Origin: an uncultured Verrucomicrobiota bacterium
GTDB lineage: Bacteria; Verrucomicrobiota; Verrucomicrobiia; Chthoniobacterales; JACTMZ01
NCBI GenBank assembly: GCA_903953565.1
Contig: CAJBKE010000037.1
Coordinates: 1-64,000, forward strand
DNA: 64,000 bases
Direction of reading: 5' to 3'
This document shows positions 937-17,383 of the stretch, one piece after another; the stretch's first letter is position 1, and every line of letters starts with the position of its first letter. The translations under genes and the position numbers were made by a program. The notes beneath the pieces were generated by a model. That model had not been told where the DNA came from and searched no databases. It worked only from the letters and a program-made list of their open reading frames with translations.

Positions 937-1580
937 TTGACGATGACGATCTTGGTGGATTCGCCGAGCTCGCGCAGACGGTGTTGCAGGGCGGTGAGGA
1001 CTTCGCGACCTTCGGCGTTGACGAAATGCCAATCCGCTCCCGGCATGGTGCCGTAGTAGAACTTCAAGTCGCCGAGCGGATCGCCGGCGCCGGTGCCGTT
1101 GGAAAGCGGGAGCGCATCCAAGTAATGCAAGGCGCGGGCCTCGGGTGAGTTGTAAACGGCGTAGGGACCTTCGAGGTAGTTCTCCCAAATGCGATCGTCG
1201 ACCTGATCGTCGAGGAAATGCAGATGGCGGTAGGCATAACGGAGGTTGTCGCGGTCGAAGTAGAACGCGCCTTCGTCGCGCAGCCATTTGCGCACGTCGA
1301 GATGATCATCCGGATCGATGTAAACGTGGTCGCTGAAGTATTCGCGCCAGGTGAATTGCGCCGGCAACTCGTCGGTGCGTCCGTTCAGGGCGAACTGGAA
1401 GTGATAGTCCTGATCGACGGCGTAGAGGATATTGCGCGCGGATTCCGGCGGATCGATGAAGATGCCGCCGGTCGTCTTCTCGTAATCGGCCGCACGACGC
1501 AGGAGCCACGAGGGGACAAAGCAGGAACCCAGTGCTGCGGCTCCGCTGATGATGAAGGTTCTTCGGGTGATCTCGCTCAC
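933..1580 (-). CDS. Hypothetical exported protein, twin-arginine-like signal (ITRRTFIISGAAALGS)
   Basis: GTG start overlapping upstream stop (GTGA); RR motif plus hydrophobic segment. Confidence 0.6.
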   Translation of the reverse strand: MSEITRRTFIISGAAALGSCFVPSWLLRRAADYEKTTGGIFIDPPESARNILYAVDQDYHFQFALNGRTDELPAQFTWREYFSDHVYIDPDDHLDVRKWLRDEGAFYFDRDNLRYAYRHLHFLDDQVDDRIWENYLEGPYAVYNSPEARALHYLDALPLSNGTGAGDPLGDLKFYYGTMPGADWHFVNAEGREVLTALQHRLRELGESTKIVIVK

Positions 1581-2227
1581 AAAAGTTCCTCCTCCGTTTC
1601 GAGTTCCTCTTGGTGCCACTCATCGAAGATGTGCTCACAGTGCCGGGCCAGCTGCGAGTAGAACTCGGAGCTGATGGAGGTGAAGTGGCGCAGGGTGCTG
1701 CGCCCGATGTATTCGGCATTGTGGTTGTTGAAGCCGACGATGAGGTTGCCGGGCGCCCCGCGCTGCTTGCTCGTTTCGAGCAGCTCCGCCAGCTCCCCCA
1801 AAGTGAGCGGAAGCGCGGAGGATGTGAGCGAGAGGTCGAAGGCGAACATGCCTTGGTATTCATCGGCGACGCTGTAGCTGATGGTGCCGTCCTGCTGCGG
1901 CGCCGCCCGCAGACTGATGATGTCGTGAGTCGTGGAATCCAGCGATATGCGGGCGATCTCGACCTCGCCATTGGTGAAGTCCGGGAGGTATTCGCCGCCC
2001 ATAAGGTGCGGGTGGATGCGGCCGGCGAACTGCCGCACATTTTCCGAAACGGCTTCTTGGAGGATTTCCTCGGGAATGTCTTCGACCGATCCCTCCGCCA
2101 AGGCGCGACGGATCTGCCTGCGCCGAAACTCTCCTTTGATGTTCTTGAGGATTGCCTGCGTCAGGGTTTCGTCGTGCCAGTAGGAAACAGGACGGTAGCT
2201 GTAATCGATCTCTGGATAGCGTTTCAC
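1577..2227 (-). CDS. Conserved hypothetical protein (VKRYPEIDYSYRPVSYW..)
   Basis: GTG start at 2225-2227 overlapping stop of the 93-aa ORF; protein-like composition. Confidence 0.6.
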   Translation of the reverse strand: MKRYPEIDYSYRPVSYWHDETLTQAILKNIKGEFRRRQIRRALAEGSVEDIPEEILQEAVSENVRQFAGRIHPHLMGGEYLPDFTNGEVEIARISLDSTTHDIISLRAAPQQDGTISYSVADEYQGMFAFDLSLTSSALPLTLGELAELLETSKQRGAPGNLIVGFNNHNAEYIGRSTLRHFTSISSEFYSQLARHCEHIFDEWHQEELETEEELL

Positions 2228-2505
2228 GCGGCCTCCTTTCTGAGCGCTTGGCTCCATGCTCCTCGCTCCTCGCTCCATGCGCCGAGCACGGCATCGCGAC
2301 GTGCCCGGGCGAGGCCCACGTTTTTGGTCTCCAGCGGCAACCGGAGTCGCTGCTTGGTGTAGTCGGGACGGTGGACGGTGGCGTGGAGCCACCAGGTGCC
2401 GTTGTTCCACCAGAGATGGTGGTTGGGGTTGCGGTGATGCGTGCGCAGGGAAAGTGCGCAGCCTTGCGGTAACGCCGCGAGGGCGGCGGGGATGTTTTTG
2501 CTCAT
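2224..2505 (-). CDS. Small protein (93 aa) resembling the N-terminal arm-binding domain of tyrosine recombinases, no catalytic domain; copy A
   Basis: NHHLWWNNGTWWLHATVHRPDYTKQRLRLPLETKNVGLARARRD; about 90% nt identical copy at 16837-17118. Confidence 0.7.
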   Translation of the reverse strand: MSKNIPAALAALPQGCALSLRTHHRNPNHHLWWNNGTWWLHATVHRPDYTKQRLRLPLETKNVGLARARRDAVLGAWSEERGAWSQALRKEAA

Positions 2506-2669
2506 TTGTGCGTTTCCTTAAACGCACCAAGGGAGATTTTGCTTTCCGGTCGATCCGATCGACCAGCGCATTGGCACGGAAGAGTCTCGCTCTCCCGCAC
2601 CAAGCCACCGTGGGTTCTCCTCCTCGGTTGGCAGCCCTGCCTTTTACGGCAGGACGTTCTTGATGCTGG
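2506..2669 (-). ncRNA. Predicted structured RNA leader, copy A
   Basis: Four or more hairpins incl. GGUGCGGGAGAG/CUCUUCCGUGCC with G.U pairs; 4 substitutions in 164 nt versus copy B. Confidence 0.55.
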
Positions 2670-5578: not shown

Positions 5579-5741
5579 CTGGGGGGAAACTTAGAGGCGA
5601 AGAGACGAAAAGAGTTGGCAGTATTCAGTGGACAGAGGTCAGAGGGCGGAATCCGGTTTGCGGCGGCTGATTCACCGACTTTGTCGGAGGATTCACCGAT
5701 TCGGCGGTGCGCGCTCCGCCGTGATGTGTCAATGGGCAGGT

Positions 5742-7988
5742 ATGAACTCCACCCTCCTCCGGAACATCTTCATGGCCGCCGCGGCCGTCCTGCTTCATTG
5801 CCAGAATGCGTCGGCAACCATCACCGCCACCACGCGTGTCGATAACGACTGGGGATCCGGACTCACCGGAACCGTCGTGCTGCGCAACACGGGCAGTGCG
5901 CCCGTCAGTAATTGGTCGGCCACGGTGACCATGCCGGCGACCATCGCCTCGATCTGGAATGCCGCCATCGTCTCGCGCAGCGGGAACAGCAACGTGGTGA
6001 AGCCGGCAAGTTGGAATGCAACGATCCCCGCCGGCGGGACGGTGGAGTTCGGCTTCACGGTCAAGCCCGGTGGCTTCGCCGCCAACCGCATCATTGTGTC
6101 GGTGAATGGCCAAACCCCCGTGCCCACCCCGACCCCGGTTCCCACGCCGACGCCAACTCCAACACCGAGCCCGAGTCCCACGCCGACTCCGCCGCCAGCC
6201 TCCTCGCCGAACGCCGATGTCACGGTGAATGGCGTGCGCGTGGAGTTTCGCGCGGTCTCCGATTGGGGAAGTGGCATGACGGCAAGCGTGAAGCTGGTCA
6301 ATACCACCGCGGCGGTCATCTCCGGTTGGACGCTCGGCATGGATCTGCCGGTCGTTCCCAACAACGTGTGGGATGCGGGGCATACACGCACCGGTGCGCG
6401 CTCGGTATTCACGCCGGTGGCTTGGAACAGATCCATCCCCGCGGGAGGAAGCGTCACGCTCGGCTTCAATGCGTCTCCCGGCAACCTGCGGACTCCGCCC
6501 TCCAATGTGACGTTGACCGCCGCCGCGGCCACGCCTGCACCCACACCCACGCCCACACCAGCGCCGACGCCGCAACCGACACCGACCCCGACGCCACAGC
6601 CCACGCCTACGCCCATACCCACGCCGACTCCGACACCAACACCCGGCGGGACGACGGGCTATGACAAAATGCCGACGGTCGAGCAGCGGAAAATCGTCGG
6701 GTATTATCCGAACTGGGGGATTTACCAGAAGAAGTTTCCGGTGACGAAAATCCGGGGCAACCGGGTCAATGTGATCAACTACGCGTTCTTGATGGCGCTC
6801 GATCGCACCATGCCGTCGGCTTGGAACAGCGTTGTCTCCACCTACCGGGGATGGCGCTACAGCAATTACTATCCGTTCATCCAGCAACCTGCGGGCAGCA
6901 ACCTGACCGCCGGCGTTGCCCTCTTCGACGAGTATGCCGATGTGGGTGCCAACTCTCCCGCGGAAGCGCTGACCATGGTGCCGGCTTTTCGGGAAACCTC
7001 GAACTTCGCCCAGCTGCGGAATCTGAAACGCGACAACAGCAAGCTGCGCACGATGATTTCGCTCGGAGGGTGGACCTTGTCTTCGCCTTTCTTCTCGATC
7101 GCGAGGGACGCGCAGAAGCGTGCGGATTTTGCCAAGTCGGCGGTCTATGTCATGGCCCGCTACGGCTTCGATGGCATCGATATCGATTGGGAATATCCGG
7201 GCGGCGGAGGGCTCGAACAATCGGCCATGGCCAACCCGGCGTCTGATGGCGCGAACTTCCTCCTGCTGTTGCAGGCGCTGCGAGACGAGTTGGATCGCCA
7301 AGAAACAAAGGACGGGCGCGGCTACTACTTGAGCATCGCGGGACCGGGCGGGGATGAAAAAATCGCCAACTTCGATCCGGCGGCGGTGGCCGGGATCGTC
7401 GATTGGATCAATGTGATGACTTATGACTTCCAAGGGGGATGGGACAATTACACCGGACACCAGTCTCCCATGGTCAGCACCGACACATCGGCAGCGCGCA
7501 AAAATTGGTCCGTCTCCGGAGCGATCGGTTTGTATCTCAATGGCCTCAACGGGAAGAGAGGCGTGCCGGCTTCTCAACTCGTGGTTGGCATCCCATTCTA
7601 CGGACGCGGCTGGGATTCCGTGCCGCCGGGGCCGCGCAATGACGGGTTGGGCCAGAGCGGCACCGGGGCGTTGTCGTCCTTGGGCGAGACGGAATTTCCT
7701 TACGACCGTCTCTACGCCGACGGCTACCTGTCCTTCGGCAATGGGCGGAGCGTGGGCATCAATGGCTACACCAGATTCTGGGATGCGGTCGCACAGGTGC
7801 CATACTTGTACTCGGCGGCCGCGCGGCGGATGGTCACCTTCGAGGACCCGGAGTCGATTGGCATCAAGATGAACTACGTCAACCAAACGGGCTTGGGCGG
7901 CGCGATGTTCTGGGAACTGAGTGAGGACGAACTCATCGCGGAGCGCTCTCTCTTGGAAACAATCTACAACAAGCTCCGCCTACCCTGA
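5742..7988 (+). CDS. Secreted GH18 chitinase with two CBM2-like domains joined by Pro/Thr linkers
   Basis: Signal peptide; DWGSGLTGTVVLRNTG repeats; YGFDGIDIDWEYPGG (DxxDxDxE). Confidence 0.9.
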   Translation: MNSTLLRNIFMAAAAVLLHCQNASATITATTRVDNDWGSGLTGTVVLRNTGSAPVSNWSATVTMPATIASIWNAAIVSRSGNSNVVKPASWNATIPAGGTVEFGFTVKPGGFAANRIIVSVNGQTPVPTPTPVPTPTPTPTPSPSPTPTPPPASSPNADVTVNGVRVEFRAVSDWGSGMTASVKLVNTTAAVISGWTLGMDLPVVPNNVWDAGHTRTGARSVFTPVAWNRSIPAGGSVTLGFNASPGNLRTPPSNVTLTAAAATPAPTPTPTPAPTPQPTPTPTPQPTPTPIPTPTPTPTPGGTTGYDKMPTVEQRKIVGYYPNWGIYQKKFPVTKIRGNRVNVINYAFLMALDRTMPSAWNSVVSTYRGWRYSNYYPFIQQPAGSNLTAGVALFDEYADVGANSPAEALTMVPAFRETSNFAQLRNLKRDNSKLRTMISLGGWTLSSPFFSIARDAQKRADFAKSAVYVMARYGFDGIDIDWEYPGGGGLEQSAMANPASDGANFLLLLQALRDELDRQETKDGRGYYLSIAGPGGDEKIANFDPAAVAGIVDWINVMTYDFQGGWDNYTGHQSPMVSTDTSAARKNWSVSGAIGLYLNGLNGKRGVPASQLVVGIPFYGRGWDSVPPGPRNDGLGQSGTGALSSLGETEFPYDRLYADGYLSFGNGRSVGINGYTRFWDAVAQVPYLYSAAARRMVTFEDPESIGIKMNYVNQTGLGGAMFWELSEDELIAERSLLETIYNKLRLP

Positions 7989-16261: not shown

Positions 16262-16489
16262 ATGAATTACTCGAAGATCATCACTATGGAACCGGGCAAG
16301 CGCTCGGGCAAACCGTGCATCCGCGGTTTGCGCATCACCGTGCATGATGTGCTCGAGTATCTGGCTTCGGGCATGTCGCACGAGGACATCCTCCGCGACT
16401 TTCCTTATCTCACAGAGGAAGACATCCGCGCCTGTCTCGCTTACGCCGCAGACGCTGGGCGCCGCACGGCCCACGCCGTTGCCGCGTGA
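16262..16489 (+). CDS. DUF433-family antitoxin
   Basis: GKPCIRGLRITVHDVLEYLASGMSHEDILRDFPYLTEEDIRACLAYAA. Confidence 0.88.
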   Translation: MNYSKIITMEPGKRSGKPCIRGLRITVHDVLEYLASGMSHEDILRDFPYLTEEDIRACLAYAADAGRRTAHAVAA

Positions 16490-16818
16490 AACTGCTCTAC
16501 GACGAGAATCTATCACCGGCCCTCGTCGCGCAGTTGGCTGATGTTTATCCGGACTCGGCACATGTCCACGATATCGGCTTGGGCATGGCTGATGACTCAG
16601 AAGTTTGGAGGCGGGCCAAGGACGAAGGCTACTGCATCGTGTCAAAGGATTCGGATTACTATGACTTGAGCGTGCTGCATGGTCATCCGCCAAAAGTAAT
16701 CTGGCTGCGTTTGGGTAACTGCAGCACAGACACCATCTTTGACTGTTTGCGAAACAATCGGGCAACGATCGAGGAATTCGGCGCCGACGCCGAGGAGTCG
16801 GTGCTGCTGATTCCGTGA
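16486..16818 (+). CDS. DUF5615-family PIN-like toxin
   Basis: MKLLYDENLSPALVAQLADVYPDSAHVHDIGL..KDSDYYDL. Confidence 0.88.
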   Translation: MKLLYDENLSPALVAQLADVYPDSAHVHDIGLGMADDSEVWRRAKDEGYCIVSKDSDYYDLSVLHGHPPKVIWLRLGNCSTDTIFDCLRNNRATIEEFGADAEESVLLIP

Positions 16819-16836: not shown

Positions 16837-17118
16837 TCACGCGGCCTCCTTTCGGAGCGCTTGGCTCCATGCTCTTTGCTCCTCGTTCCATGCACCGAGC
16901 ACGGCATCGCGGCGCGTGCGAGCGAGGCCCACACTTTTCGTTTCCAGCGGCAACCGAAGGCGCTGCTTGGTGTAGTCGGGTCGGTGCACGGTGGCGTGGA
17001 GCCACCAGGTGCCGTTGTTCCACCAAAGATGGTGGTTGGGATTGCGGGGATGCGTGCGCAGGGAGAGCGCGCTGCCTTGCGGCAACGCCGCAAGTGCGGC
17101 GGGGATGTTTTTGCTCAT
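16837..17118 (-). CDS. Small arm-domain-like protein (93 aa), copy B
   Basis: 7 aa differences from copy A. Confidence 0.7.
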   Translation of the reverse strand: MSKNIPAALAALPQGSALSLRTHPRNPNHHLWWNNGTWWLHATVHRPDYTKQRLRLPLETKSVGLARTRRDAVLGAWNEEQRAWSQALRKEAA

Positions 17119-17282
17119 TTGTGCGTTTCTTCAAACGCACCAAGGGAGATTTTGCTTTCCGGTCGATCCGATCGACCAGCGCATTGGCACGGAAGAGACT
17201 CGCTCTCCCGCACCAAGCCACCGTGGGTTCTCCTCCTCGGTTGGCAGCCCCGCCTTTTACGGCAGGACGTTCTTGATGCTGG
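17119..17282 (-). ncRNA. Predicted structured RNA leader, copy B
   Basis: As copy A; substitutions fall in loops or keep pairing. Confidence 0.55.
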
Positions 17283-17383
17283 TAAGACCAATACACCAAA
17301 ACGACCCGAGCCTCAAACTCCGAATGCGTCATAGCACCGGCCTTCTATCCATTGATGAAGCGGGGGCATGGGGATGACCTCCC

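Follow-up and report, generated by a model that had tools for sequence, protein, structure and literature searches.

A duplicated SAM-I/IV-like riboswitch leader precedes the gene of a small arm-domain-like protein in a Verrucomicrobiota genome

The window, meaning the 64,000-nucleotide stretch analysed here as a whole, lies within a 2.86-Mb draft genome of an uncultured Verrucomicrobiota bacterium and carries two copies (A and B) of a 446-bp unit, each composed of a 164-nt leader and a 282-nt ORF (Table 1). Both equal-length copies were located where the original prediction had placed them, and a scripted count reproduced its hand count of 4 substitutions in the leader versus 27 in the ORF. 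Nineteen of the 27 ORF changes fall at third codon positions, and 7 amino acids differ. The resulting values (dS = 0.384, dN = 0.034, omega = 0.09) support the proposed purifying selection on the small protein. Leader divergence is 0.025 per site, which differs from that of the synonymous sites (Fisher p = 6e-9), in line with the stronger constraint proposed for the leader. The proposed unit boundaries hold only in part: the copies are equal in length, but the leader end is not sharp, since homology to other species extends ~70 nt further upstream (window positions 16837-17352 align to genome G004). No co-directional gene is seen directly behind the small ORF of copy B. A probable toxin-antitoxin type gene pair (DUF433/DUF5615, window 16263-16818) converges on this copy.

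Table 1 Features of the window, with the parts of the leader given for copy A.
Feature	Position	Strand	Evidence or remark
Copy A unit	2224-2669	minus	446 bp
Copy A leader, probable SAM-I/IV riboswitch with expression platform	2506..2669	minus	RF01725, 34.2 bits, E 0.0015
Copy A aptamer	2530-2671	minus	Rfam RF01725
Copy A small protein, 93 aa	2224..2505	minus	arm-binding-domain-like, DUF6538 relative
216-aa orphan gene	1577..2227	minus	GTG start and the TGA that ends the small ORF overlap (GTGA)
Copy B unit	16837-17282	minus	446 bp
Copy B leader, probable SAM-I/IV riboswitch with the same expression platform as copy A	17119..17282	minus	RF01725, 34.7 bits, E 0.0011
Copy B aptamer	17143-17284	minus	RF01725
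Copy B small protein, 93 aa	16837..17118	minus	7 differences from copy A
Third family member, 77 aa	48747..48980	plus	tblastn E 1.7e-11; subfamily without riboswitch
P1, GCAU (2666-2663) with AUGC (2571-2568)	2568..2666	minus	sequence, RF01725 alignment, P1 covariation
J1/2, CAAGAA, after P1 5' strand		minus	sequence, RF01725 alignment
P2, uninterrupted stem GUCCUGCC/GGCAGGGC	2634..2655	minus	MFE fold; in relatives, both partners differ at 7/7 pairs
P3, GCCAACCG...CGGUGGC, contains SAM-contact nucleotides	2604..2632	minus	alignment, covariation
P3 loop GGAGA, pseudoknot 5' strand	2620-2616	minus	
P4, UUGGUGCGGGAGAG/CUCUUCCGUGCCAA	2570..2603	minus	MFE fold
P5, GGUCGAU/AUCGACC	2548..2564	minus	MFE fold
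Pseudoknot 3' strand UCUCC, partner of P3 loop GGAGA	2532..2536	minus	conserved, covarying partner in relatives
Expression platform	2508..2531	minus	alternative pairing p <= 0.005, recurring in 33/35 relatives
Anti-P1 element CUUGGUGC	2531-2524	minus	overlaps 5' arm of start-site hairpin
Start-site hairpin GUGCGUUU/AAACGCAC	2527-2508	minus	AAGG in loop

Compared with shuffled sequence, the leader has a folding z-score of -6.2 on the minus strand versus -3.0 on the plus strand, and hence the minus-strand assignment of its transcript holds. All helices proposed by eye are present in the minus-strand minimum-free-energy (MFE) fold and correspond to P2, P3, P4, P5 and a hairpin at the start site. 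The four leader differences comprise one U-A to U.G change in P2 and three changes in loops, again as predicted.

When Rfam was run on the whole window at the gathering threshold, one tRNA and no riboswitch were detected; the riboswitch surfaces only with relaxed thresholds or through homologues. Under relaxed thresholds, the SAM-I/IV family RF01725 aligns to both copies over its full length, at scores under the 41.1-bit gathering cut-off. It is also the best Rfam match in 20 of the 20 homologous leaders scanned in this way, 8 of them above the gathering score. Homologous leaders reach 41.3-48.5 bits with RF01725, the maximum of 48.5 being found in whole genomes of the same order. Our own model (R1, built from 34 leaders) gives 102.8 bits for copy A, which is in its training set, and 103.7 bits for copy B. 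The match to an Rfam family, an outcome that the original prediction had itself listed as refuting, sets aside the earlier view of the leader as an RNA of unknown kind.

PMC2864571 and PMC6890682 define the SAM-I/IV class by a P2 that is not split by an internal loop and by the presence of P4. Both are found in the window copies (MFE fold and alignment), together with the P1-P4 junction containing the conserved J1/2 and the P3 core CAACC...GGUG, the P5 hairpin and the pseudoknot between P3 loop and 3' tail (GGAGA/UCUCC). The SAM-proximal pocket positions, taken with their numbering from PMC6890682, are likewise kept in the alignment of both copies (A6 U7 C8, G11 A12, C44 A45 A46 C47, U57 G58). 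On architecture, pocket and covariation we file the RNA as SAM-I/IV, an assignment made by sequence comparison in which the window copies alone fall below the curated score. The leader of both copies very probably is such a riboswitch and acts as an OFF switch, with SAM as its presumed ligand.

Covariation is strong in two alignments and exceeds that of shuffled and slid controls. In the first, 96.2% of cells are paired and 15 of 20 pairs have changed on both sides, compared to 8.8 ± 1.0 when shuffled and 4-8 when slid. The second, of 54 named or viral matches, consists mostly of sequences outside the model-building set, yet fitted to the model's structure; 97.6% of its cells are paired, with a score of 0.469 versus 0.159 for shuffled sequence. 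A compensatory change in P3 converts GCCAACC/GGUGGC to GGCAACC/GGUGCC, and the pseudoknot partners covary (GGAGA/UCUCC, GAGCG/CGCUC, GUGAGA/UCUCAC, CGGGAU/AUCCCG). Of 68 cases, only 24 reached p <= 0.05 when the pseudoknot was examined with a tail-shuffle test. This test is weak because the strands are short, low-complexity and purine- or pyrimidine-rich, and the case for the pseudoknot rests on the covarying partners.

Comparison to the known classes shows which elements are shared. SAM-I/IV RNAs (RF01725; Weinberg et al. 2010), described in PMC2864571 as typically found in metagenome sequences, have the P1 to P5 layout of the window RNA, with uninterrupted P2, P4 and pseudoknot between P3 loop and 3' tail, as well as the AUCA(A/G)GA junction and the CAACC...GGUG core with its SAM-contact bases. 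The window copies depart from the RF01725 norm in their sub-cut-off scores and in the last P1 pair, which is C.A rather than C-G. SAM-I (S-box, RF00162) has a common ligand-binding core, but its P2 is interrupted with a kink-turn and it lacks a pseudoknot of the window type. SAM-IV shares the P5 hairpin and pseudoknot PK-2 but has PK-1 and no P4 (PMC6890682), whereas the window RNA contains P4 and an uninterrupted P2. A canonical SAM-I riboswitch was rejected as the identity of the leader following a genome scan with RF00162, which found members in 53 of 97 relatives and none in the window's genus (11 genomes).

In the window leaders, the P1 5' strand GCAUCAAG has an alternative partner in CUUGGUGC, with which the start-codon hairpin begins. 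When the best downstream partner of P1 was sought in the 35 leaders with an assigned start, 33 gave a significant pairing; in 34 of the 35, the leader's own P1 strand paired better than strands taken from other lineages. This alternative pairing follows lineage-specific sequence changes. A leader from the same genus with a different P1 (G003) combines GCAUCAGG with CCUGGUGC, a double change that preserves pairing, while in the f10 lineage the partner CUCUUcGAUGC also lies within a hairpin at the start codon. For copy A, the exclusive folds are 1.5 kcal/mol apart, at -78.9 (open) versus -77.4 kcal/mol (closed, without pseudoknot or ligand). In the window copies, the minus-strand interval from aptamer to start codon contains no intrinsic terminator, hence a translational model is proposed for these; no sigma-70-like promoter was found upstream. 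The alternative pairing recurs across relatives and tracks lineage-specific changes, which makes a translational OFF switch the most likely reading of the window leader. The arrangement of P1 and start-site hairpin is that expected of an OFF switch responding to SAM, the putative ligand.

In the proposed mechanism, SAM would bind the leader and, when abundant, stabilise P1. This would free CUUGGUGC and allow the hairpin GUGCGUUU/AAACGCAC to close over the ribosome-binding site and start codon. At low SAM, GCAUCAAG would instead pair with CUUGGUGC and open the start. Plentiful SAM should thereby repress the small putative DNA-binding protein and, for copy A, the translationally coupled 216-aa protein. 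The start-site hairpin leaves part of the Shine-Dalgarno sequence exposed in its loop, which makes the degree of repression uncertain. In several lineages, an intrinsic terminator also carries the P1-strand partner in its loop (the terminator was scanned in one), and pairing there would place related families under at least partly transcriptional control.

The protein encoded behind the leader had been described as arm-domain-like and devoid of a catalytic domain, and both parts of this description are supported, the first through weak profile matches. Within the family, 25 of 29 members match DUF6538 (best E 1.4e-5) and 5 of 29 match Arm-DNA-bind_3, all weakly and below threshold; the 93-aa window protein itself matches neither profile. 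The tyrosine-recombinase catalytic domain (R-H-R-Y) is absent, the protein ending before any such domain. An AlphaFold model (pLDDT 81) predicts a beta-beta-beta-alpha arrangement. The family has invariant residues, and the pattern R-x-R-x-x-L-x-T and AR-x-x-RD is common to it and the DUF6538 and Arm-DNA-bind_3 N-terminal domains of tyrosine integrases. Unlike these domains, the family members are stand-alone proteins of 70-100 aa. Foldseek and VIA-align searches with the model gave weak, unrelated matches only and no significant PDB fold, a result that does not exclude an arm-domain fold. Searches of PHROGs, NCBIfam and PDB sequences gave nothing meaningful, and phage and plasmid records contained no relative. 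Six IMG/VR viral contigs (L281-L286) encode close relatives (NKNPNHHLWLNNG...) with no riboswitch match. The invariant residues, predicted fold and weak profile matches fit an integrase arm domain, and the protein is probably a stand-alone DNA-binding domain. It may act in trans as a DNA-binding regulator or accessory factor when SAM or methionine is low; this is the weakest step of the mechanism, and we put it forward tentatively, at somewhat less than even odds.

Counting that of the window, 33 of 97 genomes encode the small protein, often in several copies. Sequence resembling the leader stands upstream at many of these loci. A scan of named genomes identified 469 encoding stretches. Among the best 80 of these, almost all are labelled Verrucomicrobiota, the closest are labelled Chthoniobacterales or Chthoniobacter, and 52 have the riboswitch upstream (one cut off, one weak). 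Of 97 relatives, RF01725 detects members in 16 at E <= 0.1 and in 8 over the cut-off, while R1 finds 44 riboswitches in 32. At its gathering score RF01725 therefore misses most members in the window's order. No R1 match occurs near the third family member of the window, and Verrucomicrobiales retain the small protein without the leader. A literature search on SAM riboswitches in Verrucomicrobiota found nothing relevant and no account of a regulon in this phylum. The RNA class is known; the small-protein target and its wide use are undescribed in the sources searched, and the available text of PMC2864571 names no such target. The SAM-I/IV class can thus be assigned a home clade and a likely expression platform. 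Its main target here is a small conserved protein, probably a SAM-regulated DNA-binding protein, and is unexpected and widespread for a known riboswitch class. The function of this protein thereby becomes directly testable.

The small ORF is the main riboswitch target; remaining copies precede unrelated genes, and most targets are not classical methionine genes. The 216-aa orphan of copy A has no Pfam or PDB fold match; 5 of 9 genomic members of its family lie close behind a riboswitch, in five taxonomic families (relatives so placed occur in G024, G032, G072 and G096). Among the neighbours, SAM and methionine genes recur. In genome G003, the small ORF is directly followed by a second metK (TIGR01034, 447 bits, cut-off 309) that differs from the housekeeping copy. 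Here riboswitch, small ORF and the divergent metK form one overlapping operon (L185:18494-19934). Fragments of a second metK lie at contig edges in two further genomes (L163, G004:C37; L162, G006:C22), so this gene may be wider within the genus than observed. Opitutae loci have mtnA as the upstream gene (above cut-off in two), and a Cys/Met PLP enzyme is encoded upstream at riboswitch-free Verrucomicrobiales loci. Neighbour conservation within one clade was counted as one event throughout. A MoxR-type AAA ATPase gene is directly next in f7 members L097, L102 and L087 and in L268, and several f7 and f13 loci encode a MetK-like protein further downstream. It is doubtful, although conceivable, that these elements form a phylum-wide Verrucomicrobiota circuit in which the SAM riboswitch controls an integrase-arm-type DNA-binding protein that acts on SAM and methionine genes in trans, with some MoxR-operon aptamers retuned to another ligand. 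A TonB receptor gene is transcribed away from the unit, with a similar C-terminus at nine loci (L206, L213, L223, L235, L246, L256, L260, L261, L277); the L206 receptor, the only one scanned, is B12-receptor-like below the family cut-off.

That these leaders are SAM-clan aptamers now recognising another ligand, such as S-adenosylhomocysteine or another SAM derivative, is improbable even for part of the family. The pocket base equivalent to A45 (SAM-I numbering) is U in L097 and L102 and G in L087, all before MoxR operons. This hints at altered ligand recognition there, so that members of the wider family may not all share one ligand specificity. J1/2 reads CAUCAGGAA in several lineages versus the Rfam consensus CAUCAAGAG, and many targets are genes without known function. 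Against such a shift, the window copies retain the pocket bases listed above, which are among the positions reported to lie near SAM, and having a second metK or mtnA as neighbour fits SAM. Co-occurrence of leader and protein in many genomes would also be expected if the protein bound its own leader in the manner of ribosomal proteins, the riboswitch likeness being incidental. The protein without leader in Verrucomicrobiales, and riboswitches that control other genes where the protein is missing (G024, G043, G066, G093), make this extremely unlikely. Conservation of the leader as peptide-coding sequence or gene overlap is the least credible of the alternatives. A frame beginning VAWCGRA from a leader GTG is open through both copies (window 1577-2608, minus strand), but the length differences among riboswitches of relatives (120 to 173 nt) are not multiples of three, and base pairs rather than codons are conserved.

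The original prediction left open a mobile or a regulatory RNA-protein unit, and the riboswitch with its downstream ORF supports the latter. The mobile alternative (IS-like, integron cassette or group II-like) would pair a structured nucleic acid with a DNA-binding protein. It could draw on the two dispersed copies with differing 3' flanks, the several copies in some genomes and the change of the gene behind the unit from one sister species to another at a shared locus. We nevertheless regard it as very unlikely: the unit is leader and 93-aa ORF alone, with no transposase or recombinase catalytic domain; neither terminal repeats nor target-site duplications were noticed in the flanks that were read; riboswitch fold and expression platform account fully for the structure; phage and plasmid records lack a match; and the association of protein and riboswitch is phylum-wide. 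Copy A moreover has a positional counterpart in a sister species (G005, contig C70), and the upstream flank of copy B borders a unit on another G005 contig (C75), hence the duplication probably predates the split from G005. Five leader sites nevertheless group together the copies of one genome, and no site groups those of one locus. These few sites suggest concerted evolution of the leaders, e.g. by gene conversion, which could account for some of their low divergence.

Variants of the riboswitch arrangement were also observed. In G065, two riboswitches stand in series, each followed by its own short gene (L181:396-528 and 974-1108). An apparently decaying riboswitch in G076 (L307:6604-6733) has disrupted pairs in P1 and P3, is followed by no clear ORF and adjoins a tRNA-like sequence. 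Elsewhere in the window, a large ORF (5628-7988) resembles a secreted enzyme of the chitinase type, in which proline-threonine linkers recur and two modules near the N-terminus are similar to each other.
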